54,735 nucleotides of DNA from Rhodobacteraceae bacterium REDSEA-S34_B6 (GTDB taxonomy: Bacteria > Pseudomonadota > Alphaproteobacteria > Rhodobacterales > Rhodobacteraceae), in the NCBI GenBank assembly GCA_001627925.1, contig LUQC01000110.1, forward strand, positions 1 through 54,735. The letters are read 5' to 3'. How positions within the stretch are numbered: position 1 is the stretch's first letter; the number at the start of each line of letters is the position of its first letter. The notes under the pieces were generated by a model. That model saw only the letters and a program-made list of their open reading frames with translations, was not told the DNA's origin and searched no databases. Made by a program: the position numbers and the translations under genes. Below, one piece after another: positions 1 through 41,616 of the stretch.

Positions 1-147
1 GAGGGTGGTTTTTCTGACATTGAGAGAAATCACCTTTTAGCACTAGAATTTACCCATAGAATAAGTCTTGGACCAAGAATTTTGCGGGCGGATACAGCAG
101 CTGTTACTGCAATTTCATTGTGGCAAAATTATCTTGGCGACTGGTAA
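1..147 (+). CDS. rsmE: RsmE, 16S rRNA (uracil1498-N3)-methyltransferase, C-terminal end only
   Basis: The window opens inside this gene. The readable tail (48 residues in frame 1) begins [10 protein letters not shown] and continues with [13 protein letters not shown] before a TAA stop. This is the SAM-binding trefoil-knot end of RsmE, whose family signature is GPEGGFS followed by LGPRILRTETA. RsmE methylates N3 of U1498 in 16S rRNA in the assembled 30S subunit. The rsmE-gshA neighbourhood is common in Rhodobacterales, which supports the call. The stop overlaps the start of the next gene (TAATG), suggesting translational coupling. The 5' end lies outside the window. Confidence 0.88.
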
Positions 148-635
148 TGAAACAAAATTCTTTGTTACATATTTTGCTTATTTGGCGAGAAACTATTATT
201 GCAATAATCTTTGCTGGCTTGGGTTTGAACTGGATATTAAATTCATTCGGTACGCTTCATACAATTGGATATGGGGTTTTACTAACCGGAATGGTTTTGG
301 CATATGCAAGTTATCAACGTACAAGGTTCAAGAGAACGGAGACTGGGACCGGAATAGTCAAATTCATAGAAGGACAAATTAGTTACTTCGGTCCCGAAAC
401 CGGTGCTATATTTTCAATAAATGATATAAAACGCCTTATTCTGGATAAATCTAAATACTCTAGCAAATGGATAATAGAAAATACCGCAGGTTATCAAATA
501 GAAATACCAACAAATGTAGAGGGCCACGAGGTATTATTTGATGTTTTTAATAGCCTTGAAGGTTTTCCAATTCACAAAATGTTAGAAACATTATCTTCTA
601 AACAAAGCATTAGGACTGTTCTTTGGCAAAAATAA
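147..635 (+). CDS. Small membrane protein of unknown function between rsmE and gshA
   Basis: A 162-residue protein that I do not recognise. I chose the ATG whose A is the last base of the rsmE stop codon (TAATG), because an earlier in-frame start would lie deep inside rsmE. Residues about 10-55 form two hydrophobic segments (around IIAIIFAGLGLNWIL and YGVLLTGMVLAYA) followed by a basic stretch (YQRTRFKR), then a soluble domain of about 100 residues. The layout, two membrane helices plus a cytoplasmic beta-rich domain, resembles small PH-like or YcxB-like membrane proteins, but no motif settles it. Coupling to rsmE suggests they are co-transcribed. Confidence 0.7.
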   Translation: MKQNSLLHILLIWRETIIAIIFAGLGLNWILNSFGTLHTIGYGVLLTGMVLAYASYQRTRFKRTETGTGIVKFIEGQISYFGPETGAIFSINDIKRLILDKSKYSSKWIIENTAGYQIEIPTNVEGHEVLFDVFNSLEGFPIHKMLETLSSKQSIRTVLWQK

Positions 636-717
636 GACTATGATTGCGATGTTTAAGTTAATGTAACAAAAGCGTTAGATTACGTGTAAATTTTTAATAA
701 AGAATTAAGGTCAAATT

Positions 718-2088
718 ATGTCGATTCCCCAGTCTGGTGGCGGTCTTGTTGAGCACTACGATCAGTTAGTGCAATACCTGTCTGACGGATGCAAACCCAG
801 ATCTGACTGGAAAGTTGGAACCGAACATGAAAAATTTGGTTTCTTTAAAGATACGTTAAAGCCGATACCATATAATGGTAAAGTTTCGGTAAAATCATTA
901 TTAGTCGGTTTAAAAGATAATTATGGCTGGGAACCTGTATTTGAGGCAGGCAATATTATTGGCCTTACAAAGGATGGTGCCAACGTTTCACTTGAACCTG
1001 GTGGACAGCTTGAGCTCTCGGGGGCTCCCTTGGCCAGTATCCATGAAACTTGTGATGAGGTTAATACGCATTTAAGCCAGGTAAAGAATATTGCTGACAA
1101 GTTAGGTATAGGCTTTATTGGGCTAGGTACAGCTCCCACCTGGAAACATCACGAAATGCCTTTAATGCCCAAAGGTAGGTACCGACTTATGACAGACTAT
1201 ATGGATAAAGTTGGTACTATGGGTAAAACAATGATGTACCGAACATGCACCGTTCAAGTGAATTTAGACTTTGAGTCTGAGTCCGATATGGTCAAGAAAA
1301 TGAGAGTTGCAATAGCACTGCAACCTGTAAGTACTGCTCTATTTTCCAATTCGCCATTCTTTGAGGGAAAACTTACTAATTGCAAAAGTTGGAGAAGCCG
1401 CGTTTGGAGAGATCTTGATGCATCGCGCACTGGAACAATTCCTTTTATTTTCAAGCCAACGTTTGGATTTGAAAGATGGGTTGAATATGCCCTAGACGTT
1501 CCAATGTATTTCGTTTACCGCGATGGGAAATACATAAATGCATTGGGCCAGTCTTTTCGAGATTTTCTTAAGGGAAAACTACCTGCATTACCAAATGAGT
1601 TACCAACCTTAAATGACTGGGCTGATCATCTTACGACAATATTTCCTGAAGCCCGCTTAAAAAAATTTATAGAAATGCGTGGAGCGGATGGAGGACCATG
1701 GCGCAGCCTTTGTGCACTTCCCGCGCTGTGGGTTGGTTTGTGTTACAATCAGTCCTCGTTAGACGCAGCATGGGATCTTGTTAAAACATGGACAAGTCAG
1801 ACACGAGAAGAGCTTAGGGTAGAAGCCGCAAATAAAGGCCTGCATTGCAAAGTCGGTAAAATTAAAATGATCGAATTAGCTAGGGAAGTAATAGCCATTG
1901 CCAATGAAGGTCTAAAAGCTCGCTGTATTCCTAGTTCAAACTTAAAATTCCCAGATGAAACTCATTTTCTAGATGCGCTAAATGAAGTTGTTGAAAGTGA
2001 GCGTACGGCTGCCGATAAATTAATCGAACTTTACAGAAACAATTGGAACCAGGATGTTTCCAAAGTATTCGATCAGCATAGTTACTGA
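718..2088 (+). CDS. gshA: Glutamate-cysteine ligase, plant/alphaproteobacterial type
   Basis: Catalyses ATP-dependent joining of L-glutamate and L-cysteine, the first step of glutathione synthesis in the cytoplasm. The 456-residue length fits the GCS2-family (plant and alphaproteobacterial) enzyme rather than the enterobacterial type. Visible family features are GTEHEKFGF near residue 34, the glycine-rich GGQLELSGAPL near residue 99, the MYRTCTVQVNLDF segment near residue 170 and RGADGGPW near residue 320. The intact reading frame and an A-rich leader with AATTAAGGTC just upstream support the start. It converges on ubiB with only 12 bases between stops. Confidence 0.95.
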   Translation: MSIPQSGGGLVEHYDQLVQYLSDGCKPRSDWKVGTEHEKFGFFKDTLKPIPYNGKVSVKSLLVGLKDNYGWEPVFEAGNIIGLTKDGANVSLEPGGQLELSGAPLASIHETCDEVNTHLSQVKNIADKLGIGFIGLGTAPTWKHHEMPLMPKGRYRLMTDYMDKVGTMGKTMMYRTCTVQVNLDFESESDMVKKMRVAIALQPVSTALFSNSPFFEGKLTNCKSWRSRVWRDLDASRTGTIPFIFKPTFGFERWVEYALDVPMYFVYRDGKYINALGQSFRDFLKGKLPALPNELPTLNDWADHLTTIFPEARLKKFIEMRGADGGPWRSLCALPALWVGLCYNQSSLDAAWDLVKTWTSQTREELRVEAANKGLHCKVGKIKMIELAREVIAIANEGLKARCIPSSNLKFPDETHFLDALNEVVESERTAADKLIELYRNNWNQDVSKVFDQHSY

Positions 2089-2100
2089 TATTACGTGTGT

Positions 2101-3648
2101 TCAATTAAAGTTAATCGGTATGCACAGTAATAAAATTAGTATTGCTAAGCATGCGAATATAAATCCTAACCCAAATGGCTTTAAACTAACATTCCAGCTT
2201 CTTTTCACGATTTGAGGTTCTGGATTAGACTGTTTAATCAATGCCTGTTCTACCAGGCTAGGTAATCTAGGTCCGAAGCGAGCCAAAACTTTTAGTGTGG
2301 TTGTTAAATCATTCAGTACTGCAGCCGGGCCCAAGTTAGATTTAATATACCCCTCGACAATCGGACGGGCAACTTCCCAGATATTTATTTGAGGATTTAA
2401 AGATCTAGCTACGCCTTCAACGACTACCATTGTCCGCTGCAGTAATATAAGTTCTGTGCGCGTTTCCATGCCAAAACGCTCAGTAACCTCAAATAGATAG
2501 CTTAAAAGCCTACCCATTGATATATTGGATGCATCCATACCAAAAATTGGCTCCCCTACGGCACGCAGAGCGCGTGCAAACTCATCTACATCCTGATCTT
2601 GTGGAACATATCCCGCTTCAAAATGCACTTGCGCAACACGCTTGTAATCCCTTTTTATAAAGCCAAACAAGATTTCGGCGTAAACACGCCTGGTGTACTC
2701 ATCAATATGCCCCATGATTCCAAAATCGAAGGCCACAATATCTCCGCTACTAGACACTTTAAGATTTCCTTGATGCATGTCCGCGTGAAAGAAGCCATCG
2801 CGAAGAGCATGGTTCAAAAACATATGCAAGACCCTATCACCAAGCTCACTGAGGTTATGACCAGCTGCAGCTAGTGCATCTACATCTCCCATCGGCACCC
2901 CATCAGCCCAATCTAAAGTCATCACTCTACGACTAGACAAACTCCAGTTAACTGAGGGTACAGAAAAACCCTTGTCTTCTTTGATATTTGCTAAAAATTC
3001 GGATGCAGATGCACTCTCTAGTCGTAAATCCAGTTCTCCCCGAACAACACCATCAAAATGAGCTATCACGTCCATCGGTTTCAATCGGCGCGATTTGGGA
3101 GACACAAACTCAACTAACCTGGCAGCAAAATAAAAGGTATCAAGATCTTTTTGAAACGCTCGTTCTATTTCCGGCCTTAAAACTTTTATAGCAACACTCT
3201 GTCCAGTGTCTTTCAATTCGCCCCGGTGCACCTGAGCAATCGATGCTGCCGCAACGGGTTCTGAAAAATCGCTAAATACATCATCAGCATCAAGACCGAT
3301 CTCCGACTTAAAACTTTGCTTTGCAACATCAGTAGAGAAGGGAGGTAACCGATCTTGTAAAACACGTAGTTGTTCAGCGAGTTCTGGGCCCACAACATCT
3401 GGACGCGTAGACAATATTTGACCAAATTTAATGTAAGCGGGACCCATCGCTGTCAGGGCTCTAGGAGCTGGCGGTAAGGATTGATCTCCTCTTCGACCTA
3501 AAAACTGAAATGGCCAAACAATAAACCTTGCAGCAAACTTTAAGGTTCTAGGTGCATCTAGAGCATTTAGTATAACTGGCATAGCGCCGGTGCGCTCAAG
3601 GGTTGCACCAGTACGAATTAAGCGCAAAATATTATGAGGCCCACGCAT
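2101..3648 (-). CDS. ubiB: UbiB, ubiquinone biosynthesis ABC1-family kinase-like protein
   Basis: Atypical protein-kinase-like ATPase needed for ubiquinone synthesis, thought to act on or extract membrane-bound quinone intermediates. The 515 residues show the UbiB hallmarks: the KxGQ motif (YIKFGQILSTRP, about residue 108), the alanine-rich loop AAASIAQVHRG (about 166), VAIKVLRP with the catalytic lysine, HADMHQGN and FDFGIMG. A hydrophobic C-terminus (LGFIFACLAILILLLCI) forms the expected membrane anchor. Its ATG follows the ubiE stop directly (TAA then ATG), so the two are one operon. A second, more divergent ABC1-family gene lies at 27.7-29.0 kb. Confidence 0.95.
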   Translation of the reverse strand: MRGPHNILRLIRTGATLERTGAMPVILNALDAPRTLKFAARFIVWPFQFLGRRGDQSLPPAPRALTAMGPAYIKFGQILSTRPDVVGPELAEQLRVLQDRLPPFSTDVAKQSFKSEIGLDADDVFSDFSEPVAAASIAQVHRGELKDTGQSVAIKVLRPEIERAFQKDLDTFYFAARLVEFVSPKSRRLKPMDVIAHFDGVVRGELDLRLESASASEFLANIKEDKGFSVPSVNWSLSSRRVMTLDWADGVPMGDVDALAAAGHNLSELGDRVLHMFLNHALRDGFFHADMHQGNLKVSSSGDIVAFDFGIMGHIDEYTRRVYAEILFGFIKRDYKRVAQVHFEAGYVPQDQDVDEFARALRAVGEPIFGMDASNISMGRLLSYLFEVTERFGMETRTELILLQRTMVVVEGVARSLNPQINIWEVARPIVEGYIKSNLGPAAVLNDLTTTLKVLARFGPRLPSLVEQALIKQSNPEPQIVKRSWNVSLKPFGLGFIFACLAILILLLCIPINFN

Positions 3649-4401
3649 TTAAATTTTCCATCCAGAGTGCAAACAGGCGACTCCCATCGTTAAATTACGA
3701 TATTTTGTTTTCTCAAAACCAGCGCTGTTAACAAGTTTCATAAAATCTTCTTGATTTGGAAACTTCCTAATGCTTTCAACAAGATACTGATAACTACTTT
3801 TATCACCAGCGATTATTTGCCCTAATCTTGGTATCACGTTAAATGAATATTTATCATAGCCCCATTGCAATAAATCGTTTGGAATATGGGAAAACTCAAG
3901 AACCATAATTCTACCGCCTGGCTTCAAAACCCGATATGCCTCAGATAAAGCTATTTTTGGGTCGGTAACATTACGTATCCCAAAACTAATAGTGTAGACG
4001 TCGAAAGTGTCATCTTCGAAAGGAAGAGCCATAGCATCCCCAACAACCCACTCGAGCTGCCCAGACAGGCCAACCGTTTCGGCCCTTTTTCTTCCCTCTA
4101 CTAGCATTGGTTCAGTTAAATCCAAAACTGTAGCATTTGCAGTTCTAGCGCGTTTAAGAAAGCGAAATGAAATATCACCAGTGCCTCCTGCCACATCTAA
4201 CAAGGATTGAAACCCTCTAGGGGCTAACCAATCCATCATCGCATCCTTCCAAACCCTGTGTATTCCCAAAGACATCAAATCGTTCATGACATCATATTTT
4301 GATGCAACCGAACTAAAGACTCCTTGGACTTTTTCAGCTTTGTCTTTTTTTAATATGGTTTCAAAACCAAAATGAGTTGTATTTTCTTTTTTGTCTGACA
4401 T
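3649..4401 (-). CDS. ubiE: UbiE, demethylmenaquinone/2-methoxy-6-polyprenyl-1,4-benzoquinol C-methyltransferase
   Basis: SAM-dependent C-methyltransferase of ubiquinone biosynthesis. The 250-residue protein has the class I SAM-binding motif [15 protein letters not shown] (about residue 66), the UbiE signature [15 protein letters not shown], then [12 protein letters not shown] and [16 protein letters not shown]-terminal [29 protein letters not shown] is also typical. First gene of the ubiE-ubiB pair. It diverges from mutM across an 84-base gap that must hold both promoters. The ubiE-ubiB-mutM arrangement is conserved in many Alphaproteobacteria. Confidence 0.96.
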
Positions 4402-4485
4402 TGCTCCAAGCCGAAAACATTTTATGTTACTTATAGTTTAGTTACGGCGCGATACAATGCGCTCATGCATTTATGAGATAGATTT

Positions 4486-5337
4486 ATGCCTGAATTACCA
4501 GAAGTTGAAACCGTTTTACGGGGTATTTCTCCATTTATGGAAGGTAATGAAATTGAATATGCTGAAGTAAATAGGCCAGACCTTAGAAAACCATTTCCCA
4601 TTAATCTTGCGAAGCGCTTAAAAAATCGCAAGATAAATTTTTTGCACCGAAGGTCAAAATATATACTCATTGATTTATCAGACGGGGAAACTTTAATTAT
4701 GCACTTGGGGATGTCAGGTCGAATATTGATTTCTCAAAATGTTACGGGTAATTTCCACCATAATTCAAGTCACACCCAGAAGCATGACCACTTTATTTTG
4801 CATTTGAAGGATAACCACATGGTTACCTTTAATGATCCTAGGCGATTTGGCGTTATTGATTTACTTGAAACAAAGTCATTAGAAATAAGCAGCATGCTAA
4901 GCCACATTGGGCCAGAACCATTAAGCAATAGGTTCAATGAAGAATATTTTATAAATGTCATGAGGGGTAAAAAAACTAATATAAAATCAGCGCTACTGGA
5001 TCAGCGTCTTGTTGCTGGCCTTGGCAATATATATGCTTGCGAAGCATTATTCCGGGCCGGAATATCCCCAAAACGCCAAGCATTTAGTATATCACACAAG
5101 AGGCTCGGCTTTCTTGTGCCTATAATCAAGGAAATACTAACGGAAGCAATATCATCAGGCGGTTCCTCATTAAGGGATTTTCGTAATTCCGCCGGAGGCT
5201 TGGGCTATTTCCAGCATAAGTTTGAGGTCTATGGAAGAGAAAATCAAAATTGCTATAACACACAATGTACCAGAAAAATTAAACGTATTATTCAGGCAGG
5301 CCGATCAAGTTTTTATTGCGGTAATTGCCAAAGATAA
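4486..5337 (+). CDS. mutM: MutM (Fpg), formamidopyrimidine-DNA glycosylase
   Basis: Base-excision repair enzyme that removes 8-oxoguanine and other oxidised purines and cuts the abasic site. The N-terminus MPELPEVETV carries the catalytic Pro2 and Glu3. The core shows MHLGMSGR, FNDPRRFG, and the H2TH segment GLGNIYACEALFRAGISP. The C-terminal zinc finger has four cysteines (CYNTQC then CGNC, with the GRSSFYC loop). The 283-residue length is standard. It diverges from ubiE and is followed by the enoyl-CoA hydratase 62 bases on, so both may share a transcript. Confidence 0.96.
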   Translation: MPELPEVETVLRGISPFMEGNEIEYAEVNRPDLRKPFPINLAKRLKNRKINFLHRRSKYILIDLSDGETLIMHLGMSGRILISQNVTGNFHHNSSHTQKHDHFILHLKDNHMVTFNDPRRFGVIDLLETKSLEISSMLSHIGPEPLSNRFNEEYFINVMRGKKTNIKSALLDQRLVAGLGNIYACEALFRAGISPKRQAFSISHKRLGFLVPIIKEILTEAISSGGSSLRDFRNSAGGLGYFQHKFEVYGRENQNCYNTQCTRKIKRIIQAGRSSFYCGNCQR

Positions 5338-5399
5338 CTTGAGTCTTTTGACAGAAATGATAAAAAAACCTCTCATAAATGCTAAGAAGGGCAGAGCTT

Positions 5400-6176
5400 A
5401 TGGCTTACGAGACAATCATAGTTGATGTTGAGGACCACGTCTGTGTTATAACACTTAATCGCCCTGAGGCACTGAATGCACTTAGCAAAGAACTTCTTGA
5501 CGAACTTGCAGAAGCCTTAGAAGAAAGTCAGAAAAATGACAAAGTTCGGTGTATAGTAATCACAGGCTCAGAGAAAGCATTCGCAGCAGGTGCTGATATA
5601 AAAATGATGCAAGATAAGAACTTTTCTGAGGTGTTTTTAGAAGACCTGTTCACAAACCAAGCCGATAGGATTTCTAGAATTAGAAAACCAATAATTGCGG
5701 CTGTATCTGGCTATGCATTAGGCGGTGGATGTGAACTAGCAATGATGTGTGATTTCATAATTTGCTCTGATACGGCTAAATTTGGCCAACCTGAAATCAA
5801 TCTTGGGATCTCTGCTGGGTTAGGTGGTACACAAAGGTTAACGCGTTTTGTTGGCAAATCCAAAGCAATGGAAATGAACCTGACAGGAAGATTAATGGAA
5901 GCAGAGGAAGCCGAACGATGCGGATTAGTTAGCAGAGTTGTGCCAGCTAAAAAACTCCTCGAAGAAGCCATATCTGCCGCTCTGAAGATATCTGAAAAAT
6001 CATTGCTTACAACTATGGCAGTTAAAGAAATGGTAAATAGAGCCTACGAATTACCATTAGCAGAGGGATTACGGTTTGAGCGAAGAGTGTTTCATTCCTT
6101 GTTTTCAACAGAGGACCAAAAGGAAGGAATGGCCGCATTCAGTGAAAAACGGGATGCTCAGTTCCGCGATAGATAA
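5400..6176 (+). CDS. Enoyl-CoA hydratase, crotonase family
   Basis: Hydrates trans-2-enoyl-CoA to 3-hydroxyacyl-CoA in fatty-acid beta-oxidation. I chose the ATG at 5400 (protein MAYETIIVDVED, 258 residues, the usual family length) over an upstream start because AAGAAGGGCAG, a fair ribosome site, sits just before it. Crotonase features are visible: LNRPEALNALS, the oxyanion-hole segment GSEKAFAAGADIKMM, AVSGYALGGGCELAMMCD and QPEINLGISAGLGGTQRL with the catalytic glutamates. C-terminal SEKRDAQFRDR matches the short-chain FadB1-type hydratases found next to mutM and rpsT in Rhodobacterales. Confidence 0.93.
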   Translation: MAYETIIVDVEDHVCVITLNRPEALNALSKELLDELAEALEESQKNDKVRCIVITGSEKAFAAGADIKMMQDKNFSEVFLEDLFTNQADRISRIRKPIIAAVSGYALGGGCELAMMCDFIICSDTAKFGQPEINLGISAGLGGTQRLTRFVGKSKAMEMNLTGRLMEAEEAERCGLVSRVVPAKKLLEEAISAALKISEKSLLTTMAVKEMVNRAYELPLAEGLRFERRVFHSLFSTEDQKEGMAAFSEKRDAQFRDR

Positions 6177-6268
6177 TAAAAAAGCACCAATTTATCAGTA
6201 GACATGTTGACTCGAATACAAGAGACGCATAAAGAGCAACGAAATTTGTGAAATATAGGGATCGGTAA

Positions 6269-6532
6269 ATGGCAAATACGCCTCAGTCAAAAAAGCGTGC
6301 AAGACAAAACGAGCGAAAGCTAGAAGTTAACAAAGCGCGTCGATCAAGGATACGCACATTTCTAAAAAAAGTAGAGGAAGCTATATCGTCAGGTGATAAG
6401 AACGCCGCTAATACAGCGTTAAAATCCGCTCAGCCTGAGCTAATGCGTGGTGTTACTAAAGGTGTTTACAAAAAAAATACTGCCGCAAGGAAAATGTCAC
6501 GGCTTTCATCCAGAGTTAAAAGCCTAACTTGA
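6269..6532 (+). CDS. rpsT: Small ribosomal subunit protein S20 (bS20)
   Basis: The 87-residue, strongly basic protein begins [17 protein letters not shown] and contains the family's [33 protein letters not shown] segments. It binds the 5' domain of 16S rRNA in early 30S assembly. The ribosome site GGGATCGG lies just upstream. A textbook intrinsic terminator follows at once, so rpsT ends its transcript. Its position just before dnaA is conserved in many Alphaproteobacteria. Confidence 0.97.
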
Positions 6533-6886
6533 TAATTAGTGAGATGTAATTTTTGAAGGACGCGTTTCGCGTCCTTTTTATTTTGATGAATACTTTTTAC
6601 AACAATCAGAGATTCTCTTCATTTTTTTTTGAGTCAAGTCTTAAGTTCTGTTGAATGATTCAAAAAACACTTGTTAATGTCTTTATAGCGAGTCGTTCGC
6701 CTGGGGGGTTCAGTTGATTAGGAGTTGTATGCCACACTTCGCCTAAATTCTGGCCAATCTAAAATTTTGTAACATCGCTAGTGGAGTTTATCTTCGCCAA
6801 GCTTGATCTGTGTACATTCTTTAGCGGGTAGTAACGCCTCTTCAGGTTTTAAGCTGGGACACAACTGAAGTTTTGGGAATTAAAAA
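6533..6886. other. Intergenic region between rpsT and dnaA
   Basis: A 354-base stretch with no gene. It holds the rpsT terminator at its left end, then AT-rich sequence that must contain the dnaA promoter. This is a candidate place for the replication origin by analogy with other bacteria, but reading both strands I found no convincing DnaA box: the best partial matches to TTATCCACA share only about six of nine bases. No inverted repeat other than the terminator stands out. AATTAAAAA sits before the dnaA ATG without a strong ribosome site; GGGAATT at 6874 is the closest candidate. Confidence 0.5.
6556..6585 (+). terminator. Intrinsic terminator of rpsT
   Basis: A perfect 9-base stem AAGGACGCG / CGCGTCCTT with a TTT loop (6556-6576), followed by TTTATTTT. 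It lies 24 bases after the rpsT stop codon and isolates rpsT from dnaA. Confidence 0.9.
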
Positions 6887-7891
6887 ATGAACAAAGATTT
6901 ATGGGGACAAATTCAAGAGGAACTTCAGGAAACAATAGGAAAAAATAACTTCACTAATTGGATTTCACCACTAAAATTCTCAGAAGTAGTTGATGGTGTT
7001 GCAACATTTAAGGTACCAACAACTTTTTTAGGTAATTATGTTTCTCAAAATTTTGGTGATATAATTCTTTTCAAACTCAATAGCGTTGATAAAAGTGTAA
7101 CACGGATTTCCTTTAAAGTTAGTGACAGCGTTTTACCGAAGAAATCTGATGCAAAGAGTGAGGTAAAAGTTTCAAAGTCTGCCGTTAATCGGTCTGAAGT
7201 TATACCTGGAGCTCCTTTGGACCCAAGGTTTACTTTTGATAGTTTTATTGTTGGGAAACCAAATGAACTGGCACATGCTGCGGCAAGAAGAGTTGCGGAT
7301 GGCACTTCTGTGACTTTCAATCCACTATTTTTATACGGTGGCGTAGGATTAGGTAAAACACATTTAATGCACGCTATAGCGTGGGAATTGTCGAATAAAA
7401 GACCAGATTTAAATGTTTTATATCTATCGGCCGAACAATTTATGTACCGCTTTGTACAGTCATTGCGTGAACGAAAGATGATGGATTTCAAACAAATCTT
7501 CCGATCGGTAGATATACTGATGGTAGACGACGTTCAGTTTATTGCAGGGAAAGATAGCACTCAGGAAGAGTTTTTTCATACTTTCAACGCGCTGGTTGAT
7601 CAGGGAAAACAGATTATAATTTCAGCAGATAGGGCCCCTGGCGAAATAAAAGGCCTCGAAGAAAGGATTAAAAGCAGATTGCAGTGTGGTTTAGTTGTAG
7701 ATTTACACCCAACTAATTATGAGCTGCGACTTGGAATTCTCCAATCCAAAGTGGATATGTATAGCAAACAGTATCCAGATCTCAGTTTTGATCCGGAAGT
7801 TTTAGAGTTTTTAGCTCTTCGAATATCAACAAATGTTAGCGCGTCCCCGGCAAATTGCTATGTATTTATCCAAAAACCTTACGAGCCGTAG
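6887..7891 (+). CDS. dnaA: DnaA replication initiator, domains I-III, truncated by a frameshifting deletion
   Basis: DnaA binds oriC and opens it for replication. Residues 1-90 are domain I ([29 protein letters not shown]). The AAA+ core follows: [22 protein letters not shown], Walker [11 protein letters not shown], Walker [15 protein letters not shown], and [27 protein letters not shown] with the arginine finger region. The frame then reads LALRISTNV and leaves the family: 12 unrelated residues and a stop. In intact DnaA, NV is followed by RELEGALNR (sensor II arginine), the AAA+ lid and the start of domain IV. Those roughly 70 residues are absent here, and the remaining domain IV continues in another frame (7838-8033). 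As written, this product cannot bind DnaA boxes. Confidence 0.9.
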
Positions 7892-8033
7892 CCTGCCAGA
7901 AATAGGAAGAAGATTTGGAGGGCGAGATCATACAACTGTAATGCACGGTGTTAAACGAATTGAGGAACTCAAAATCCAAGATGGCCAGGTTGCAGAAGAC
8001 GTTGAAATCTTACGCCGCGCACTCGAAGCTTAA
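7833..8033 (+). pseudogene. dnaA: DnaA domain IV fragment, out of frame with the upstream dnaA part
   Basis: From 7838 this frame reads [19 protein letters not shown] and then [18 protein letters not shown], the helix-turn-helix signature that reads DnaA boxes, ending [26 protein letters not shown] at the normal DnaA C-terminus. It overlaps the end of the upstream dnaA reading frame in a different phase. An ATG exists at 7833 by chance, but no ribosome site precedes it, so this is best seen as the 3' part of a single broken dnaA spanning 6887-8033, not an independent gene. Confidence 0.88.
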
Positions 8034-8112
8034 GACTAGTTATTAAGTAAAGATAAATATCATAATTCTGGTCCATACTGCGAAATCTATTGAATGATAG
8101 AAAACACTTGAG

Positions 8113-8136
8113 CAGGTTATAAAATGGTTTAACCTG
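8113..8136. repeat. Inverted repeat in the dnaA-dnaN spacer
   Basis: CAGGTTA and TAACCTG form a perfect 7-base inverted repeat separated by 10 bases, 35 bases before the dnaN ATG. There is no clean T-run after it, so it is more likely a leader hairpin or a protein-binding site than a terminator. Its role is unknown. Confidence 0.45.
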
Positions 8137-8170
8137 GCATTCCGATTATTTTAACATAGGAGCAGAGGGA

Positions 8171-9289
8171 ATGAAATTAAGCATAGAGCGAAATACCCTT
8201 TTGAAAGCTGTGTCGCATGCTCAGTCGGTAGTTGAGCGTCGTAATACAATTCCTATTCTTGCCAATGTATTGATTGAAGCGGAGAACGATAAGGTTCAAT
8301 TTAGAGCCACAGATCTAGATGTGGAAGTAGTCGACCGAGTACAAGCTAAAGTTGATCGTACTGGCTCAACGACAGTTTCAGCTGTTTTGTTGCATGAAAT
8401 TGCTCGCAAACTGCCCGAAGGCGCACTGATCGAACTTACAGCCGATGCAGCGAATGGAAGGCTTACAGTGGAAGCAGGGCGATCAAATTTTTCTCTAGCT
8501 ACCCTGCCTAAAGAAGACTTTCCAGTAATGGCTTCATCAGAATACGCAGCAAATTTTTCCGCAAAATCTGGGGATCTTCGTCGATTATTTGATAAATCTA
8601 GGTTTGCTATTTCAACCGAGGAAACAAGATACTACTTAAATGGTGTTTACATGCATGCTGCTACCTTTGAAAATTCAAAAGTGCTAAGGTGCGTGGCTAC
8701 TGATGGGCATAGGCTTGCAAGGGTAGATGCCAGTTTGCCTAACGGAGCAGAAGAATTACCAGGTGTAATAATTCCTAGGAAAACTGTAGCAGAAATACGA
8801 AAATTCTTAGATGACGATGAAGTCCAAATTGCTGTTTCAGTTTCTGAAACAAAGGTTCGTTTTGCAACACCTGATATTACTTTAACATCGAAAGTAATTG
8901 AAGGAACATTTCCTGATTATACTCGCGTAATTCCCGCATCCAATGAAAAGAAGTTAGAAGTCGACGCCGACGAATTCGCAAAGGCCGTTGACAGAGTTTC
9001 TACTGTATCATCAGAAAGATCACGGGCTGTAAAACTTTGTTTAGAAGACGATCAGCTTACTTTGATTGTCAATTCTCCAGATAGTGGAGCAGCAGAAGAA
9101 CAGGTGGCAGTTGCTTATAACGACGAGCGTTTAGAAATAGGCTTCAACGCTAAATATTTGCTGGAAATATCTGGTCAAATTGACAAGGAAAATGCTATAT
9201 TTATGTTTAACTCGTCTGGCGATCCTGTTCTGATTAGAGAAGGCAGTGATTTATCAGCAGTATATGTCGTAATGCCAATGAGAGTTTAG
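8171..9289 (+). CDS. dnaN: DNA polymerase III sliding clamp, beta subunit
   Basis: Forms the ring-shaped dimer that tethers polymerase to DNA. The 372-residue length and the start MKLSIERNTLLKAVSHAQSVVERRNTIPILANVLIEA are standard for alphaproteobacterial DnaN, and the end VYVVMPMRV matches the conserved MPMRL tail that closes the clamp's partner-binding pocket. AGGAGCAGAGGG just before the ATG is a strong ribosome site. It lies 137 bases after dnaA and 27 before recF in the classic dnaA-dnaN-recF order. Confidence 0.97.
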   Translation: MKLSIERNTLLKAVSHAQSVVERRNTIPILANVLIEAENDKVQFRATDLDVEVVDRVQAKVDRTGSTTVSAVLLHEIARKLPEGALIELTADAANGRLTVEAGRSNFSLATLPKEDFPVMASSEYAANFSAKSGDLRRLFDKSRFAISTEETRYYLNGVYMHAATFENSKVLRCVATDGHRLARVDASLPNGAEELPGVIIPRKTVAEIRKFLDDDEVQIAVSVSETKVRFATPDITLTSKVIEGTFPDYTRVIPASNEKKLEVDADEFAKAVDRVSTVSSERSRAVKLCLEDDQLTLIVNSPDSGAAEEQVAVAYNDERLEIGFNAKYLLEISGQIDKENAIFMFNSSGDPVLIREGSDLSAVYVVMPMRV

Positions 9290-9316
9290 TGATTTACTTT
9301 TATATAAGGTTTTGAC

Positions 9317-10426
9317 TTGCATATTAGTCAGCTGACATTATCACATTTTCGATCTCACAAATATACACAGCTTCAAGTTGAAAGTGGTCCAGTAGCTTTA
9401 TTTGGAAGTAACGGCGCTGGAAAGACAAATTTAGTTGAAGCAATTTCGTTACTGTCTCCAGGGAAAGGTATCAGAAAAGCTAATACGGCTGATTTAAGCA
9501 GAAGTCCTGATAATATTGGGTGGAAGGTAAATGCAGAAGTAGTATCGGGTGTTAGTTCCAATTTGATCGAAACCTCTTGGGAGACTACCTCATCTCGAAT
9601 AGTCAAAATAAATGATAAAGTCGTCAAACAAAACGATTTAGCAAAAGTATTTAGAGTTGTTTGGCTATTACCGTCCATGGATCGCCTATGGCTAGAAGGA
9701 GCGGATGGTCGGCGCAAATTTCTTGACCGGCTCACTCTAAGCTTTTTTCCAAAACACGCAGATTGTGTACTGAACTATGAGAAAGCTATGCGCGAAAGGA
9801 ACCGTCTTCTTAAGGAGAAAATGACTGATGGTGTCTGGTACAAAGCATTAGAACGTCAAATGGCTCAAAATGGCCTTCTAATTCAATCAAACCGCAGTGC
9901 AACATTAAAAAAAATAAGTTCAGCACAAGAAAATTCAACTACTACGTTTCCTATAGCTGAACTATCTTTATCGAAAGCAAACGGTGATTTAACAACCGAT
10001 GAGGATGAATTTGTCAAAGCACTATCAGAAAACCGCCACCTTGACATAATGGCGGGCCGTACACTAATCGGGCCTCATCGCTCAGATATGGAAGCTACTT
10101 ACAAAGAAAAAGGTATTTCTGCAAAAGACAGTTCAACTGGAGAGCAAAAGGCGATGCTTATATCAATAGTATTAGCTAATGCCCGAGCTCTAAAATTAGA
10201 ACTTGGACATCCTCCAGTAATACTATTAGACGAGATATCTGCCCATTTAGACATAGACAGACGAGGTGCATTATATGAGGAAATAAATGCTCTCGGGGCT
10301 CAAGCGTGGATGACTGGTACAGACAGAAATCTATTTTCTGAATTTGGGTGTAAAGCGAAATATTTTCATGTGATTGAGAGCTCTGGAATTTCAGATATTA
10401 AAGAAATAGATTTCTCCGTTGATTAA
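9317..10426 (+). CDS. recF: RecF, recombination and gap-repair ATPase
   Basis: SMC-like ATPase that with RecO and RecR loads RecA at single-strand gaps. The start is TTG at 9317 (protein MHISQLTLSHFRSHKYTQL); no ATG gives the conserved N-terminus, so a TTG start is well supported. Walker A is GSNGAGKTNLVEA (residue 30 region), the signature is STGEQKAMLISIVLANA, and Walker B is PVILLDEISAHLD. The 369-residue length is normal. In many relatives gyrB follows, but here a LysE-type exporter does. Confidence 0.94.
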   Translation: MHISQLTLSHFRSHKYTQLQVESGPVALFGSNGAGKTNLVEAISLLSPGKGIRKANTADLSRSPDNIGWKVNAEVVSGVSSNLIETSWETTSSRIVKINDKVVKQNDLAKVFRVVWLLPSMDRLWLEGADGRRKFLDRLTLSFFPKHADCVLNYEKAMRERNRLLKEKMTDGVWYKALERQMAQNGLLIQSNRSATLKKISSAQENSTTTFPIAELSLSKANGDLTTDEDEFVKALSENRHLDIMAGRTLIGPHRSDMEATYKEKGISAKDSSTGEQKAMLISIVLANARALKLELGHPPVILLDEISAHLDIDRRGALYEEINALGAQAWMTGTDRNLFSEFGCKAKYFHVIESSGISDIKEIDFSVD

Positions 10427-10442
10427 ATAAATATATAATCAT

Positions 10443-11096
10443 ATGGGTCCTGACATGTCTATATCGATCAGTGAACTAACCTTTTACGCTTTTGGAATAT
10501 TTGTCCTTTTTCTTACACCGGGACCAGTTTGGATAGCAATAATCTCTAGGTCGATCTCGAGTGGTCTTCAGGGAGCAGCTCCACTAGCTGCTGGGGTCGC
10601 AATTGGCGATATAATATGGCCGTCTTTAGCAATTGCCGGAAGTGCTGCTTTGGCCGCTTCATATATCAATTTACTGTTATACCTTAAATATATAGCAGTA
10701 ATAATATTTGTGATATTGGGCATCAATTTAATAAAAAATCAAAAATCGAATATCAAACCTCAAGACATTAAGCTTCATAAAAAAAGCGAATTAGCTGGGT
10801 TTACTGCAGGACTACTAGTTATAATTGGAAATCCCAAAGCTGCTTTATTCTACCTTGGGATACTTCCCGGGTTTTTTAATCTTACTGAGTTTACACTAAT
10901 AGACTCTGCAGCAGTAGCATTGGTTTCAGCAGTAATACCATTTATCGGCAATCTCGTATTAGCAGCGATGATAGAAAAATCTCGAGCAATTTTAAGCTCT
11001 ACTTCTGCTATGAAAAAACTCAATATACTATCTGGGTGTTTATTGATTTTTGTTGGATTATTAATATTTTTTGGCGCCTATAAAAGCCATTTATAG
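10443..11096 (+). CDS. LysE/RhtB-family amino-acid exporter
   Basis: An inner-membrane exporter of about six helices. The signature FLTPGPVWIAIISRSISSGLQGAAPLAAGVAIGD in the first helix region is typical of LysE/RhtB proteins, which expel amino acids such as lysine, threonine or homoserine lactone. NPKAALFYLGILPGF in the middle is also a family hallmark. The substrate cannot be read from sequence. Start is uncertain between 10443 (ATG) and an in-frame ATG at 10455; neither has a strong ribosome site. It lies 16 bases after recF and its 3' end overlaps the convergent methyltransferase gene by six bases. Confidence 0.88.
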   Translation: MGPDMSISISELTFYAFGIFVLFLTPGPVWIAIISRSISSGLQGAAPLAAGVAIGDIIWPSLAIAGSAALAASYINLLLYLKYIAVIIFVILGINLIKNQKSNIKPQDIKLHKKSELAGFTAGLLVIIGNPKAALFYLGILPGFFNLTEFTLIDSAAVALVSAVIPFIGNLVLAAMIEKSRAILSSTSAMKKLNILSGCLLIFVGLLIFFGAYKSHL

Positions 11097-12155
11097 TTTG
11101 GCATAATAAAATCTTACTTTAAGTCCACCATGATTAATTGGCTCACTAACAAATGAAAACTTTATTTGAGTTGTCTGCGCCAGTGAACCATCCGCGGTAA
11201 TCAGTCCAACTCGCCAACCATTGAATTTGGATTTGAGCACCATTCCTATTTTAGCATATAACGCATATAATATTTTTTTATCACCTATTCTCCCTCCATA
11301 TGGAGGATTAAAAATTACCAGACCGCACTGGTTCGACAAAGGAGACAGATCGCTGATTGATTGGGATTCAAAATTTGTAATATGACTTACATTTGCTAAT
11401 TTTGCATTTTTTATTGAATTTTTTATCGCTCCATCATCACGATCATAGCCAAATAGATTTAGTTCAAGCCTGGGGATTAATTTTTGATCTTTTAAGATTG
11501 TCTTAAAAGCCTTGGGATCGAATGATTTTAACTTTTGAAAGCTAAAACCCCTTCTTCTGCCCGGTGCCCCGCCAATTGCAATCTCTGCAGCTTCAATCAC
11601 AAACGTACCAGAGCCACACATTGGATCAATTAAAGGCTGTGATGGGTCAAAGTCGCACATTTTTAAAAATGCAGATGCCAATGTTTCGCGCATTGGTGCT
11701 TTGCCAGTGAACGACTTATAGCCTCTTTTATGTAAGCCCTCACCGGTACTATCAATACTTATTTTCACCAAATTTTTTTCTATTCGCACCTTTATGCAAA
11801 TATCAGCATCCTTGGAAATTCTGTTACCTACTGAATGTACTATCGCATTTTCTATTCTTTCAGCAGCAGCACGTGCATGATATATTTTTGATTTTCGGGA
11901 TACTACTTCCACTCTCACTGGATGCTGTGCTTTAAGGTATTTTGGCCAAGGGAATTTACAGGCCCTCTTATCTAATTGCGCAAGATGTACAGCATAAAAT
12001 TCGCCCAATCTAACTAAAATACGAGTGGCGGTTCTTAAGAGAACATTCGCACGCCAAACTTGAAACCAATCACCACTAAATTCAACACCGCCTGTGATAG
12101 GCATGAGGTGTTGAAATTCCAGTTCTTGTAATTCTTTAGTGAGAACTTTCTCCAA
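11091..12155 (-). CDS. THUMP-domain class I SAM-dependent RNA methyltransferase (RlmL/YpsC type)
   Basis: Predicted to methylate a guanine N2 in 23S rRNA, like the RlmL part of E. coli RlmKL. The THUMP domain covers about residues 30-140; the catalytic domain carries PLIDPMCGSGTFVIEAAEIA and the motif IFNPPYGGR (NPPY) used by N-methyltransferases, with NLFGYDRDDGA between. The only standard start on this frame is TTG at 12155, yet the sequence upstream in frame reads ISNFQLLAVCSPG, which is the family's missing N-terminal strand. No ATG, GTG or TTG lies between that region and the preceding TGA stop, so the start is either a rare codon (ATA at 12194 or ATT at 12209) or damaged. Confidence 0.85.
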   Translation of the reverse strand: MEKVLTKELQELEFQHLMPITGGVEFSGDWFQVWRANVLLRTATRILVRLGEFYAVHLAQLDKRACKFPWPKYLKAQHPVRVEVVSRKSKIYHARAAAERIENAIVHSVGNRISKDADICIKVRIEKNLVKISIDSTGEGLHKRGYKSFTGKAPMRETLASAFLKMCDFDPSQPLIDPMCGSGTFVIEAAEIAIGGAPGRRRGFSFQKLKSFDPKAFKTILKDQKLIPRLELNLFGYDRDDGAIKNSIKNAKLANVSHITNFESQSISDLSPLSNQCGLVIFNPPYGGRIGDKKILYALYAKIGMVLKSKFNGWRVGLITADGSLAQTTQIKFSFVSEPINHGGLKVRFYYAKL

Positions 12156-12297
12156 ACCGGGGCTACAAACGGCTAGCAGTTGAAAATTACTTATCTCAGC
12201 TATAAAAATACTCCGAATATTAAAAGAAACTTCTTTGAAAAGTATTATTTTATAAGATCACTTGATCATACTTTGAAATATTGTGCATAAATAAGTT

Positions 12298-13065
12298 ATG
12301 ATCAAGTTAATAAAAGTATTATTATTTTCAACTTTAATAATTCCAAATTTGGCCATATGCGAAAAAGCGCAAGTACTTGTATTTGCCGCTGCCAGTACAA
12401 AAAATGCACTGGACGCCGTAATAAAAGACTACAATGCTCGCACAAAATCAGAAATTTTACCTGTATATGGAAGTTCCGCTACCCTGGCAAAACAAATAGA
12501 GTTCGGTGCGCCAGCTGATATTTTTCTAAGTGCTAACGTCCCTTGGGTCGACCATCTCGTAAAAAGGGATATAATTCAGCCTAGAAACACAAAAAAAATA
12601 TTAAAAAATAAATTAGTTTTGATAACAACTGACCGAACAATTCAAGAAATTGAAGACATGGCCTCTACTGATTTTTCTAAATTGCTTGGAAATGAAAAAA
12701 TAGCAATGGGCATGGTGTCTTCTGTCCCTGCCGGCATTTATAGTAAGCAAGCCCTAAAATACTTAAACCAATGGAATGCTATCTCATCACAGGTAATTCA
12801 GGCGGATAACGTACGGACCGCACTTCAATACCTTCTCTCAAGAAATGTAGTGTTTGCAATAGTATACGCGAGTGATGCAAAACTATTTCCCGAGTTAAAA
12901 GTTATTGGCATTTTTGACGATTTCACTCATGATCCAATAATATATCCTGCCTCACTTATAAATCTTGGATCAGAAGAAGCAGATCTATTCTTTAAATATC
13001 TTGTAGAGGCCAAAACACTTAAAGTGTTTGAAGAATATGGTTTTCTAATATCAGCACGCGACTAG
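12298..13065 (+). CDS. modA: ModA, molybdate ABC transporter periplasmic binding protein
   Basis: Captures molybdate in the periplasm. The 255-residue protein has a signal peptide (KLIKVLLFSTLIIPNLAIC) and the ModA core VLVFAAASTKNALDAVI, YGSSATLAKQIEFGAPADIFLSAN, and MGMVSSVPAGIYSKQAL. The family's next steps, the ModB permease and ModC ATPase, do not follow: the gene ends at a terminator and katG converges on it. A molybdenum-dependent CO dehydrogenase is encoded 5 kb away, so the cell does need molybdate; ModBC must be elsewhere. Confidence 0.93.
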   Translation: MIKLIKVLLFSTLIIPNLAICEKAQVLVFAAASTKNALDAVIKDYNARTKSEILPVYGSSATLAKQIEFGAPADIFLSANVPWVDHLVKRDIIQPRNTKKILKNKLVLITTDRTIQEIEDMASTDFSKLLGNEKIAMGMVSSVPAGIYSKQALKYLNQWNAISSQVIQADNVRTALQYLLSRNVVFAIVYASDAKLFPELKVIGIFDDFTHDPIIYPASLINLGSEEADLFFKYLVEAKTLKVFEEYGFLISARD

Positions 13066-13150
13066 AGAACTCCTTTATTTTCCAGCATTGCTAACGCTCT
13101 GATGCTAGCCCCTGCATAAACCTGAAGAAACTTCTCAGATTTATTCCTAG

Positions 13151-13196
13151 AAATCCTAACCCATAGATGATTACTCTAATGGGTTAGGATTTTTTT
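13151..13196 (+). terminator. Intrinsic terminator after modA, facing katG
   Basis: A perfect 14-base inverted repeat, AAATCCTAACCCAT (13151-13164) and ATGGGTTAGGATTT (13179-13192), with a 14-base loop. On the plus strand it runs into TTTTTTT and so ends modA. It also lies just past the katG stop on the other strand, where the T-run is weaker, so it may serve both genes. Confidence 0.85.
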
Positions 13197-13210
13197 AATT
13201 ACTTAGAACT

Positions 13211-15424
<2,214 letters not shown>

Positions 15425-19671: not shown

Positions 19672-20870
19672 AGCTTCGCCAACTCCTCGTCTAGAGCAGC
19701 CAAATCATTCAAAGTATTGGCCGCAGAGAATAAATCAAGGTAAGGAAGGGACGCCGCCATCGAAGCAGTAACAGGTGCATAATCTTTCCAGCCTTTTAGA
19801 GGATTTAGCCAGATTATTTTACAGCCCCGCTTTTTTAAATTTACTAGCGCTTCTACCAAATCATTAACGTTATTTGAGTCGTAACCATCTGACAAAATGA
19901 TGACTACACTTCTGCTGTTTACAAACCGACGCGCATAGGTTCTTGAAAATTTTTTTATACTATAACCTATCCTTGAGCCACCACCAAAACCGTTCGCAAG
20001 AAGAGATAGTTTTTCCATTGACCGGCCGGTATTTTCGTCTTTTAGTGCATCGGTAACCCGTACAAGCTCCGTATGGAATAGATAAGCGTCTGTATTTTGA
20101 TCATTTCGCATCAATGCCGAAAGAAAAGCTAAAAATATTTTTGAATAAACATTCATAGACCCAGAAACATCACATAATGCCACTATTCTTTTAGGCCGAT
20201 CTGGCTTGGATTTATTAATCAACTTAAAAGGATCTCCCCCTGTCGAGAGGCTCCGACGAATAGTTTTACGAAAGTCCAACACCTGACCTTTCCTTGAGCT
20301 AATTAGCCTTCTTGACCGCTTGTCACACAGAGCTTTACCAATCCTTATTGCAACTTCCATTGCATCATCAATTTCTTGATTAGTAACAAATTCACGTAAA
20401 TCTTTTTGCATCTTTGAAGCTTTTTCTACCGCAACAAGCTCACCTTCTCTTTGATCGTTCAAAATAGCTGTGTCTTCATCAGGCTCACTTGGTGCACCCG
20501 AAGAGCTATCCGACTTGTCTATAGCTTTATCATCAGCCTCTGAATCACCAGCCTCTGAAACCATTTCTTTTTCATTGGGAACGTTACCGTTTGGAATTAC
20601 TTTTTGCTTTACACGTCCAGAATCCATCCAATAACTATCGAACAAATCTTCAAAGCGGCGAGATTCATCAAGATTTCCAACGCATAGTGGTTTTAATGAG
20701 CGTCTCACTTCAAATGGATCACTCATATTTATTCGGTCTAGGATGGTAAGTGCAGTTTCAACTTCTGAAACACCTAATTTTAGATTATTAAATCTTAAAT
20801 GAGAAAAGAAACCAACTATCCGAGCAGATGGCCCAGTATCTCGAGCAGCAAATTTACTAATACGACTCAT
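19668..20870 (-). CDS. coxE: CoxE, VWA-domain CO dehydrogenase maturation protein
   Basis: CoxE works with the AAA+ protein CoxD to build the Cu-S-Mo active site of CO dehydrogenase. I place the start at the ATG at 20870 (MSRISKFAARDTGPSARIVGF), which overlaps the coxD stop as ATGA; the frame extends further upstream but only into coxD. The von Willebrand A domain has the MIDAS motif DVSGSM (region PKRIVALCDVSGSMNVYSK) and later IILSDGYDSN. The linker near residues 125-160 is rich in Asp, Glu and Ser. About 400 residues, as expected. Confidence 0.93.
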   Translation of the reverse strand: MSRISKFAARDTGPSARIVGFFSHLRFNNLKLGVSEVETALTILDRINMSDPFEVRRSLKPLCVGNLDESRRFEDLFDSYWMDSGRVKQKVIPNGNVPNEKEMVSEAGDSEADDKAIDKSDSSSGAPSEPDEDTAILNDQREGELVAVEKASKMQKDLREFVTNQEIDDAMEVAIRIGKALCDKRSRRLISSRKGQVLDFRKTIRRSLSTGGDPFKLINKSKPDRPKRIVALCDVSGSMNVYSKIFLAFLSALMRNDQNTDAYLFHTELVRVTDALKDENTGRSMEKLSLLANGFGGGSRIGYSIKKFSRTYARRFVNSRSVVIILSDGYDSNNVNDLVEALVNLKKRGCKIIWLNPLKGWKDYAPVTASMAASLPYLDLFSAANTLNDLAALDEELAKL

Positions 20871-21622
20871 GCAGCTTGTCCTGCTATGCGCTGTGCAACC
20901 TCTGTCGTGATATTCCACTGGTCCGTCTTTGTTTTAAGCAATGTGGTCATGGCTGACTGAAGTATTTCAGGATCATGAGATAAATCGTTAACACCTAGGC
21001 CTATTAAAGCGGCAGAAAAATCTAACATTTCAGCGATACCGGGCGTTTTTTCCAAATCCTCCTTACGTAATTTCTGCACAAAATCTATAATCTGGCTTGC
21101 AAGTAAGAAGTCAATATTAGGCTGTCTAGCTTTTAAAATTTCTATCTCAGTAGTACGATCAGGATATTCCACATAACTATATAGACACCTCCGTCTTAAA
21201 GCATCAGACAGGTCCCTAGTACCGTTTGAGGTAAGGATGACAATTGGCTTGGTCACGGAGTTTATCGTGCCTAACTCAGGAATTGAGACCTGATAATCAG
21301 ATAAAATTTCTAGTAAAAATGCTTCAAATTCTTCATCTGCCCTATCGATTTCGTCAATTAAAAGAATCGGGGACTTATCTTGCGTTATTGACATTAGAAG
21401 TGGACGGGCTGAGTCTAGACCTTCATAACATTGCAATCTGATTAGTTTGGTTGATCGGGCTTGAGAAAGTGCTCTTGCAAGCTCTGTCTTTCCAACTCCC
21501 GCAGAACCTTCTAACAACAGTGGGCGTTCCAATGATAAGGCAAGCTGAATTGCAACTACTAATTCGTCCGACGCAATATAACTTTGCTCAGCCAGTGCTG
21601 CTTGAAGTTTTTTCCATTCCAT
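20867..21622 (-). CDS. coxD: CoxD, MoxR-type AAA+ ATPase for CO dehydrogenase maturation
   Basis: AAA+ chaperone needed to insert sulfur and copper into the CO dehydrogenase centre. Walker A is GSAGVGKTEL, Walker B is PILLIDEIDRADEEFEAFLLEIL, and the MoxR features VILTSNGTRDLSDALRRRCLYSYVEYPD are clear. I chose the ATG at 21622 (MEWKKLQAALAEQ); a TTG 12 bases earlier is possible but lies only three bases past a strong hairpin. About 251 residues. It begins 49 bases after coxL and overlaps coxE. Confidence 0.93.
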   Translation of the reverse strand: MEWKKLQAALAEQSYIASDELVVAIQLALSLERPLLLEGSAGVGKTELARALSQARSTKLIRLQCYEGLDSARPLLMSITQDKSPILLIDEIDRADEEFEAFLLEILSDYQVSIPELGTINSVTKPIVILTSNGTRDLSDALRRRCLYSYVEYPDRTTEIEILKARQPNIDFLLASQIIDFVQKLRKEDLEKTPGIAEMLDFSAALIGLGVNDLSHDPEILQSAMTTLLKTKTDQWNITTEVAQRIAGQAA

Positions 21623-21637
21623 TACGCAGTCCAATCT

Positions 21638-38357: not shown

Positions 38358-38940
38358 TGTTACAAACCTTAATGCCAAAAATATTGTCGATTTTATTGGT
38401 TCAATATTTGAAAAACGTGGGGATGAAGAGTACCTGGGTGAACCGGTAACAATGGGTCAACATATGTTGCAGGGGGCAACTATGGCCGAACAACGTAGAG
38501 AACCCGATGAAATTATAATTGGCACCCTTCTTCACGACATTGGCCACTTCACTAGTGAATTTGGGACTTTTTCGATGGAGGATACAGAAGACCGTTACCA
38601 TGAAGATGCAGGAGCAGCAGTGCTTGAGCAATTTTTCCCAAAGGTCATTACTGATTGTTGCCGACATCACGTTGCAGCTAAACGCTATCTGTGTGCTACG
38701 GATCCAGAATATTTCCAAAAGCTTTCAATAGCCTCTATTCACTCTCTTAATCTTCAAGGCGGACCAATGTGCGAGGCAGAAATAAAAGATTTTGAAAAAA
38801 ATCCAAACCTCAAAAAAATACTCAAGGTTCGACTGTATGATGATGCTGGTAAAATTCCAGACATGGTTACCCCATCATTTTGGCATTTTGCTCCTCTGGT
38901 CCAAAAGATGGTTGATAGTCATTGTTCAAAAGAAAAATAA
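38347..38940 (+). CDS. tmpB: TmpB/PhnZ-like HD-domain mixed-valence diiron oxygenase
   Basis: Predicted to split the C-P bond of the TmpA product, giving glycine betaine and phosphate. The 197 residues keep the PhnZ-family pattern: the Tyr29-x-x-Glu32 gate (YLGEPV), His39, the HD pair His63-Asp64 (LLHDIGHF), His85 (YHEDAGA), His107/108 (CRHHVAAKRYL) and an Asp at 165-166 (RLYDDAGK). Spacing of the first five positions matches PhnZ exactly (+5). Only oxygenase-type HD proteins carry the Tyr/Glu lid, which argues against a phosphohydrolase. Overlap with tmpA implies coupled translation. Confidence 0.78.
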   Translation: MKRSVTNLNAKNIVDFIGSIFEKRGDEEYLGEPVTMGQHMLQGATMAEQRREPDEIIIGTLLHDIGHFTSEFGTFSMEDTEDRYHEDAGAAVLEQFFPKVITDCCRHHVAAKRYLCATDPEYFQKLSIASIHSLNLQGGPMCEAEIKDFEKNPNLKKILKVRLYDDAGKIPDMVTPSFWHFAPLVQKMVDSHCSKEK

Positions 38941-40095: not shown

Positions 40096-41616
40096 TTATG
40101 TTTTAACCTTTTCCAATTTAGGATCATAAAGCGGTTTTAGGCAAACATTTGCTCTTACTCTTTTCGTCGCCACCTCAAGTTCATAATCACCAGATAATAC
40201 GAAATCGTGATCGATGTACCGGTCACTACGGACATATCCCATTCCTATAAATTTTCCTATGGTGTGACCGAAACCGGCAGAACTTAACCAACCACAACGC
40301 TCGCCATTACGATAAATTGTTTCTCGACCTGATAGAATAACATTACTATCAGTCGTGAATGTAGCCATTATCTTTTTAATGCCCTCAGCTCTCTGTTTCG
40401 TTATTGCATCGCGCCCTTTAAACGAAATATTAGATTTCATTTTCACTGCCCAACCTAAACCTGCTTCATCTGGAGTATGATCGGGACCAATATCTGACGA
40501 CCAGGCACGATAACCTTTTTCAAGTCTAAGAGTTTCAATTGCCCGATATCCAGCATTTCGTAAACCCAATGGCGATCCAGCTTCAATTAATTTATTGTAA
40601 ACGGTTTGTGCATAATCAACGGGCAAATGCAGTTCCCAACCAAGTTCTCCAACATACGTAATGCGCATAGCTAGAACTTGGCATCCCGCTATACTTATTT
40701 GCCTTGCCGATCCAAACGGATGACCATTATCTGAGACATCGTTTACAGTTACTAACTGTAAAATATCCCGTGCGTTAGGCCCAAAAAGAGATAAAACCGC
40801 ATTAGATGACGTTACATCAATCAATTGAGCATTTAGCTCAGATGGGATATTTCTGCTAATCCAATTAAAATCGTGAGTAGCATAACCAGTACCCGTAGTT
40901 ATATAGTACTCGTTAAACTTTGTACGAACACAGATTAAATCGCACTCAATTCCACCATTATCATTGAGCATTTGAGTGTAAATTATAGACCCAACTGGCT
41001 TATCAACACGATTGGAAGCAATCCATTGAAGTGCCTGTTCTGCATCTGGGCCAGTTAATATATATTTTGCAAATGAGGTCTGATCGAACAAAACAGCTGC
41101 TTCTCTTGCTGCTTTGTGTTCACGAGCTACTGCACTATGCCAGTTAGGCAGTCCGAACGTATATATATCACGCGGTTCCTCACCAGTGTCGGCAAACCAA
41201 TTCGCTCTTTCCCACCCAAGTTTTTCACCAAACACTGCACCGGATGATTTCAAAGTATCATATAATGGCGATCGACGACATGGTCTCCCAGTTCTGTGTT
41301 CCTCAGATGGCCAAGCCATCGTATAATGTTTTCCGTAAGCCTCTAGAGTACGCGACCTTACCCAATTTGTATCCTGATGTGGGCGCCCAAACCGGCGGAT
41401 ATCAACTGGCCAGAGATCAAATGGTGGCGCTCCATTGGCAACCCACTCAGCCAAAGCCATTCCTGCGCCACCACCAGCTGCAATCCCATAGGCATTAAAG
41501 CCTGCGCCTATGTAAATATTTTTTAATTCCGGGGCTTCTCCTAATATAAAATTGCCATCAGGCGTGAAACTCTCTGGTCCGTTCAATAATTGCTTCACAC
41601 CCACGAGGCAAAGCAA
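40096..41616 (-). pseudogene. DMGDH-like oxidoreductase, C-terminal part (FAO_M and GcvT-type folate domains)
   Basis: Continues the FAD oxidoreductase encoded at 41558-42508 but in a different frame. From 41601 it reads GVKQLLNGPESFTPDGNFILGEAPELKNIYIGAGFNAYGIAAGGGAGMALAEWV, the C-terminal end of the DAO domain, then a FAO_M linker and a GcvT-like tetrahydrofolate-binding domain (FDQTSFAKYILTGPDAEQALQWI to LRLEKGYRAWSSDIGPDHTPDEAGLGWAVK), closing with the barrel domain. Dimethylglycine and sarcosine dehydrogenases share this plan: they oxidise an N-methyl group and pass it to folate. The start shown is a chance TTG. The frame is broken by a small deletion, so the full protein cannot be made as written. 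Confidence 0.85.

Follow-up and report, generated by a model that had tools for sequence, protein, structure and literature searches.

The dnaA gene of Rhodobacteraceae bacterium REDSEA-S34_B6 lacks 209 bases, almost certainly through an artefact of its draft genome

The window analysed here is a stretch of 54,735 nucleotides, bases 1-54735 of contig C14, in the draft genome of REDSEA-S34_B6, an assembly of 2,413,873 bases in 111 contigs with a completeness of 95.52 and a contamination of 3.1. Profile matches identify dnaA followed by dnaN, with rpsT before and recF after them, both named by eye. No RNA family above its gathering score and no tRNA was found in the window. The pattern TTATNCACA, which we take to be the DnaA box, has four exact matches in the window where 2.84 are expected and therefore gives no DnaA-box signal. 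The dnaA locus is organized as follows.

6887..7837, plus strand: dnaA 5' part, codons 1-317, in frame
7838..7840, plus strand: joint at which 209 bases are absent relative to G006, G010 and G012, with at most one common base (G)
7838..7891, plus strand: dnaA read-through past the joint, out of frame, its stop ending at 7891
7839..8033, plus strand: dnaA 3' part in another frame, the last 64 codons plus stop, translation ending LEA
8171..9289, plus strand: dnaN, the intact neighbour of dnaA

From its start at 6887, the gene encodes a normal DnaA as far as V317, whose codon ends at 7837. Pfam recognizes DnaA_N, Bac_DnaA and the second part of Bac_DnaA_C in the two pieces, the 3' part corresponding to positions 29-69 of the 69 in Bac_DnaA_C (PF08299). 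Against TIGR00362 (NCBIfam), the pieces cover positions 1-305 and 376-437 of 437 and sit in different frames, so that no single frame gives full coverage and 70 positions are absent. The 5' part alone, although truncated, passes the cut-off of 343.9 with 354.5 bits. We take the absent positions, 306-375, to hold the beginning of domain IV as well as sensor II and the lid. Both pieces are thus unmistakable DnaA by TIGR00362, PF00308 and PF08299, and adjoin dnaN, but the drafted sequence lacks 70 model positions and has lost its frame.

The nearest relative compared, G006, belongs to the same genus and shares 95% protein identity over the 5' part of dnaA. Window positions 1-7839 align with 595-8423 of this relative and positions 7839-13153 with 8632-13946, a step of exactly 209 bases. 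The initial annotation, which had estimated from the sequence that about 209 bases or 70 codons were gone from dnaA and the frame lost, was therefore correct. Its proposed comparison with the dnaA of the closest relatives gives the same answer three times over, the gene being 209 bases longer in G006, G010 and G012. Since G010 and G012 share the longer state of G006, the loss lies on the REDSEA-S34_B6 side.

The same picture holds more broadly. Of 60 relatives searched, 55 have a dnaA match, each with an open frame 434-615 residues long; in the 29 best of these 55 (L002-L030), the dnaA frame is uninterrupted throughout. The five relatives with no dnaA match comprise three genomes that are 53-70% complete and two that are 91-93% complete. 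A search of named relatives, covering the best 80 of 592 matching stretches (best identity 73%), reveals at 74 of the 80 loci both motifs within an open dnaA frame that is at least 400 residues long. The other six consist of four intact genes with a variant motif, one gene truncated where its contig stops (L109) and one with a broken frame (L093). We note that at L093, positions 3001-4250 of the Asaia platycodi JCM 25414 draft, the C-terminal motif and the start of dnaA lie in different frames.

Three readings of the broken gene had been offered at the outset: a wrong sequence, a decayed copy beside a second dnaA, or a different way of starting replication. The genome-wide search for a second dnaA, also proposed there, covered the 2.41-Mb assembly with N-terminal, C-terminal and PF00308 queries and found none. 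In fact, the N-terminal and the C-terminal query each returned only the one dnaA, and PF00308 returned dnaA and one weak match on contig C18 (21.7 bits, or 24.1 with neighbours, against a cut-off of 23; model positions 37-145). The missing stretch is not displaced within the assembly either, as a 241-base query from G006 gave only chance matches to the organism's own genome (best E 0.145). Of the three readings, only the first, a wrong sequence, is strongly supported by the results below; the second copy was not found, and nothing speaks positively for another mode of initiation. That replication starts without full-length DnaA, or by means of split DnaA fragments, would agree with the failure of the assembly search to return a second full dnaA. 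The absence of TIGR00362 positions 306-375, with the presumed sensor II, lid and first part of domain IV, argues against such a start, as do a 3' piece holding only positions 29-69 of PF08299 and the open dnaA frame in every matching relative, and we consider this explanation extremely improbable.

The letters at the joint bear on how the bases were lost. The initial annotation had suggested a deletion between short direct repeats, citing GTTAG-like bases. The comparison does not support this, the relative having AATGTTAGGGTCC at the left edge and GAACTTATGCACG at the right edge; the GTTAG repeat is absent at the joint, and at most one base is common to both sides. A search for direct repeats across window positions 7650-8050 yields four short pairs, none of them at the joint, and in the intact relative the two ends of the lost stretch do not share a direct repeat of several bases. 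The single shared base is read from the sequence comparison and not from the automatic breakpoint count, which returned -1 (the tied breakpoints not being contiguous) and then 0 at the tied breakpoint. A real deletion by repeat slippage, considered as one origin of the gap, is consequently not supported with at most one base in common.

A real deletion of another kind could have occurred very recently in the sampled cells, as a dying or minority genotype, or in a lineage that is shedding many genes. The dnaA joint is clean and its flanks are otherwise normal, and at most one shared base is also compatible with a real blunt deletion. Over window positions 1-20186, the alignment to G006 contains, besides the gaps at dnaA and at 13153, only five gaps of 1-9 bases, all intergenic; the base-level quality of this stretch is otherwise good, which counts against an artefact. 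The 3' piece of dnaA differs from G006 in 10 codons, of which 10 are synonymous and 0 nonsynonymous; in the 5' part, 22 codons differ synonymously and 17 nonsynonymously, with 16 of the latter among the first 100 codons. A bias toward synonymous change is expected to fade in a gene that has long been broken; with 10 synonymous and no amino-acid changes in its 3' piece, dnaA therefore appears to have been under selection until very recently.

Further losses relative to G006 in the window are as follows.

13068..13160, minus strand: what is left of a KDO-transferase-like gene (PF04413 in G006), with about 1.3 kb absent relative to G006, G010 and G012
21404..21407: joint with an in-frame loss of 120 bases, within an AAA+ ATPase gene (minus strand, 20867-21634); the longer state is common to G006 and G012
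41601..41602: joint at which 20 bases are absent, out of frame, in an 810-residue G006 gene, a putative FAD-type oxidoreductase by eye

The KDO-transferase-like gene is almost wholly removed, and a 28%-identical relative of it lies on C25. Because the joint at 13068-13160 shows some common bases together with divergence, this loss of about 1.3 kb may be real, and its cause is uncertain. The AAA+ ATPase gene with the 120-base loss adjoins a gene for a molybdopterin-binding dehydrogenase large subunit (21672-24089). In the other direction, window positions 37505-38815 hold about 1.3 kb that is extra relative to G006 and includes the greater part of both a TauD-family dioxygenase gene and an HD-domain gene.

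To place these gaps in the context of the genome, we compared a sample of 624,311 bases of REDSEA-S34_B6 with 1,510,225 bases of G006, of which 455,050 aligned at a mean identity of 95.6%. The event search used alignments of at least 200 bases and at least 88% identity, accepted same-strand joins only, and set aside two two-sided gaps before one-sided gaps were counted. Losses are strongly one-sided: among one-sided gaps of at least 10 bases, 29 are losses in REDSEA-S34_B6 and 6 run in the opposite direction (p 1.2e-4 in a sign test that treats the events as independent). A run of N accounts for one of those 6, and a stretch of adapter plus N for another. At three sites, all in the window, a third genome was used to check which side had lost the bases. 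Seventeen of the 29 losses fall wholly inside a G006 gene; the 12 not counted as such are mostly intergenic, at a gene end or spanning several kb, and two of them fall in open stretches, 120 and 135 codons long, that were not taken as genes. As a control, G010 and G012 show two one-sided gaps in 75,415 aligned bases at 93.4% identity. This points in the right direction but is weak, since 2 gaps were observed where about 5-6 would be expected at the REDSEA-S34_B6 rate.

Gene integrity shows the same asymmetry, similar joints being many in this assembly and not in the relative. Of 1,138 sampled G006 open reading frames of at least 150 residues, 357 could be paired with an ortholog in the sampled part of REDSEA-S34_B6, and these orthologs are intact for 339, split for 11 and partial for 7. 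Conversely, 359 of 470 REDSEA-S34_B6 frames have an ortholog in the G006 sample, with 350 intact, 1 split and 8 partial, and the single split case is REDSEA-S34_B6's own broken pntA fragment. The cut genes include sucA, gatB, uvrA, pntA, rnc, a relative of cytochrome oxidase III and dnaA, all but rnc being among the 11 split. NCBIfam models identify cut genes above cut-off as 2-oxoglutarate dehydrogenase E1, dihydrolipoyl dehydrogenase, RNase III, UvrA, transhydrogenase alpha, GatB and ribosomal protein L25, and below cut-off as relatives of cytochrome oxidase subunit III and of a glycosidase; one of ten genes scanned has no match. In-gene losses also hit DnaA, an AAA+ ATPase and genes with no search-based name. 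In the whole assembly, GatB is present as two pieces only, and SucA as three pieces only, plus a weak match of 19 bits. The gatB and sucA joints are at C5:107778 and C11:110655, respectively. We note that sucA (L254, L256; about 108400 on contig C11 of G000) changes frame once more around codon 890, in addition to its 49-base loss.

Leaving out the four in-gene losses with N, adapter or extra bases, 13 of the 17 joints could be analysed for their letters. Nine share 0 bases and four share 1, and none shares 2 or more; the mean, scored on the letters of G006 and not on the lost letters themselves, is 0.31 against 0.71 for 20,000 random joins, with a chance of 0.07 for a mean so low. The reading frame is lost at 11 of the 13, which is no improvement on the two thirds expected by chance. 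An unmarked gap would carry no repeat at the joint and ignore the reading frame, and this is what is seen, with 0-1 shared bases in 13 of 13 and 11 of 13 out of frame.

Several sister joints bear marks of the assembly process.

C17:59661: CTGTCTCTTATA remnant, 15 bases replacing 162
C25:33064: CTGTCTCTTATA remnant in a 22-base extra stretch beside an N
C18:13364: a single N replacing 161 bases
C18:42166: 11 N where the sequence is 30 bases short

The sequence CTGTCTCTTATA is the start of the Nextera sequences given for trimming in PMC3906532. It occurs twice in the whole assembly, both times at gaps relative to G006, and its reversed control has 0 matches. The short N runs we take to be the assembly's own, and the G006 sample contains no N and no CTGTCTCTTATA remnant. 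On the other side, the dnaA joint itself carries neither N nor adapter.

A real deletion in the sampled cells would have to account for dnaA, gatB, sucA, uvrA, rnc and pntA all lost in one genome. The frame distribution of the joints, no better than random, and the adapter or N marks at sister sites speak against it as well, and we regard a real deletion as very unlikely. Comparably clean cuts, some next to adapter or N, interrupt several other vital genes of this draft, so the gap in dnaA is almost certainly an error of the draft, whichever technical source produced it and amplification chimeras included. The data show the gap, its size of 209 bases and its nearly blunt joint, and place it among many such gaps in the sampled quarter of the assembly. 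We infer that the dnaA joint shares its cause with the joints marked by N or adapter, and likewise what the exact cause and the responsible pipeline step would be at dnaA.

A collapsed or unmarked gap at a contig join is a kind of assembly error in short-read drafts. The likeliest step would be the joining of two contig ends, or of two stretches of low coverage, over a gap that had not been sequenced and that received too few Ns or none. Such joining would leave blunt joints, arbitrary in size and frame, at many sites in the genome. This fits the nearly blunt, one-sided and frame-blind losses and the marks. The likeness to a collapsed gap extends to the arbitrary sizes and to the N or adapter at sister joints; the dnaA joint differs in carrying no N.

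Alternatively, the DNA may have been amplified from one or a few cells, and the amplified molecule may truly have carried the deletion, which would still make the gap an artefact of the draft. The Nextera-type remnants indicate a tagmentation library, and such libraries are often used after amplification. Chimeras of multiple displacement amplification (MDA) would also yield false joints, but, in PMC1855051, directly joined segments less than 10 kb apart had complementary bases (2 or more) in 90.9%, whereas 0 of 13 joints here do. The same paper gives 85% of chimeras as inverted, and our event search took same-strand joins only. MDA chimeras thus fit the joints less well than joining over unsequenced gaps, and we consider amplification an unlikely source, accounting for a minor share of the artefact reading.

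In sum, the broken dnaA is almost certainly an ordinary artefact and not a real feature: the observation is correct, but the draft it describes is at fault. Eleven of the 357 genes tested, or about 3%, are split in this draft (completeness 95.5%, contamination 3.1%), and false joints are very probably the cause; gene absences and pseudogenes called from the REDSEA-S34_B6 draft are therefore untrustworthy without the reads. It is hardly conceivable that this is an alphaproteobacterium whose sampled cells truly have no working DnaA and begin chromosome replication in some other way; the organism very probably has an ordinary dnaA.
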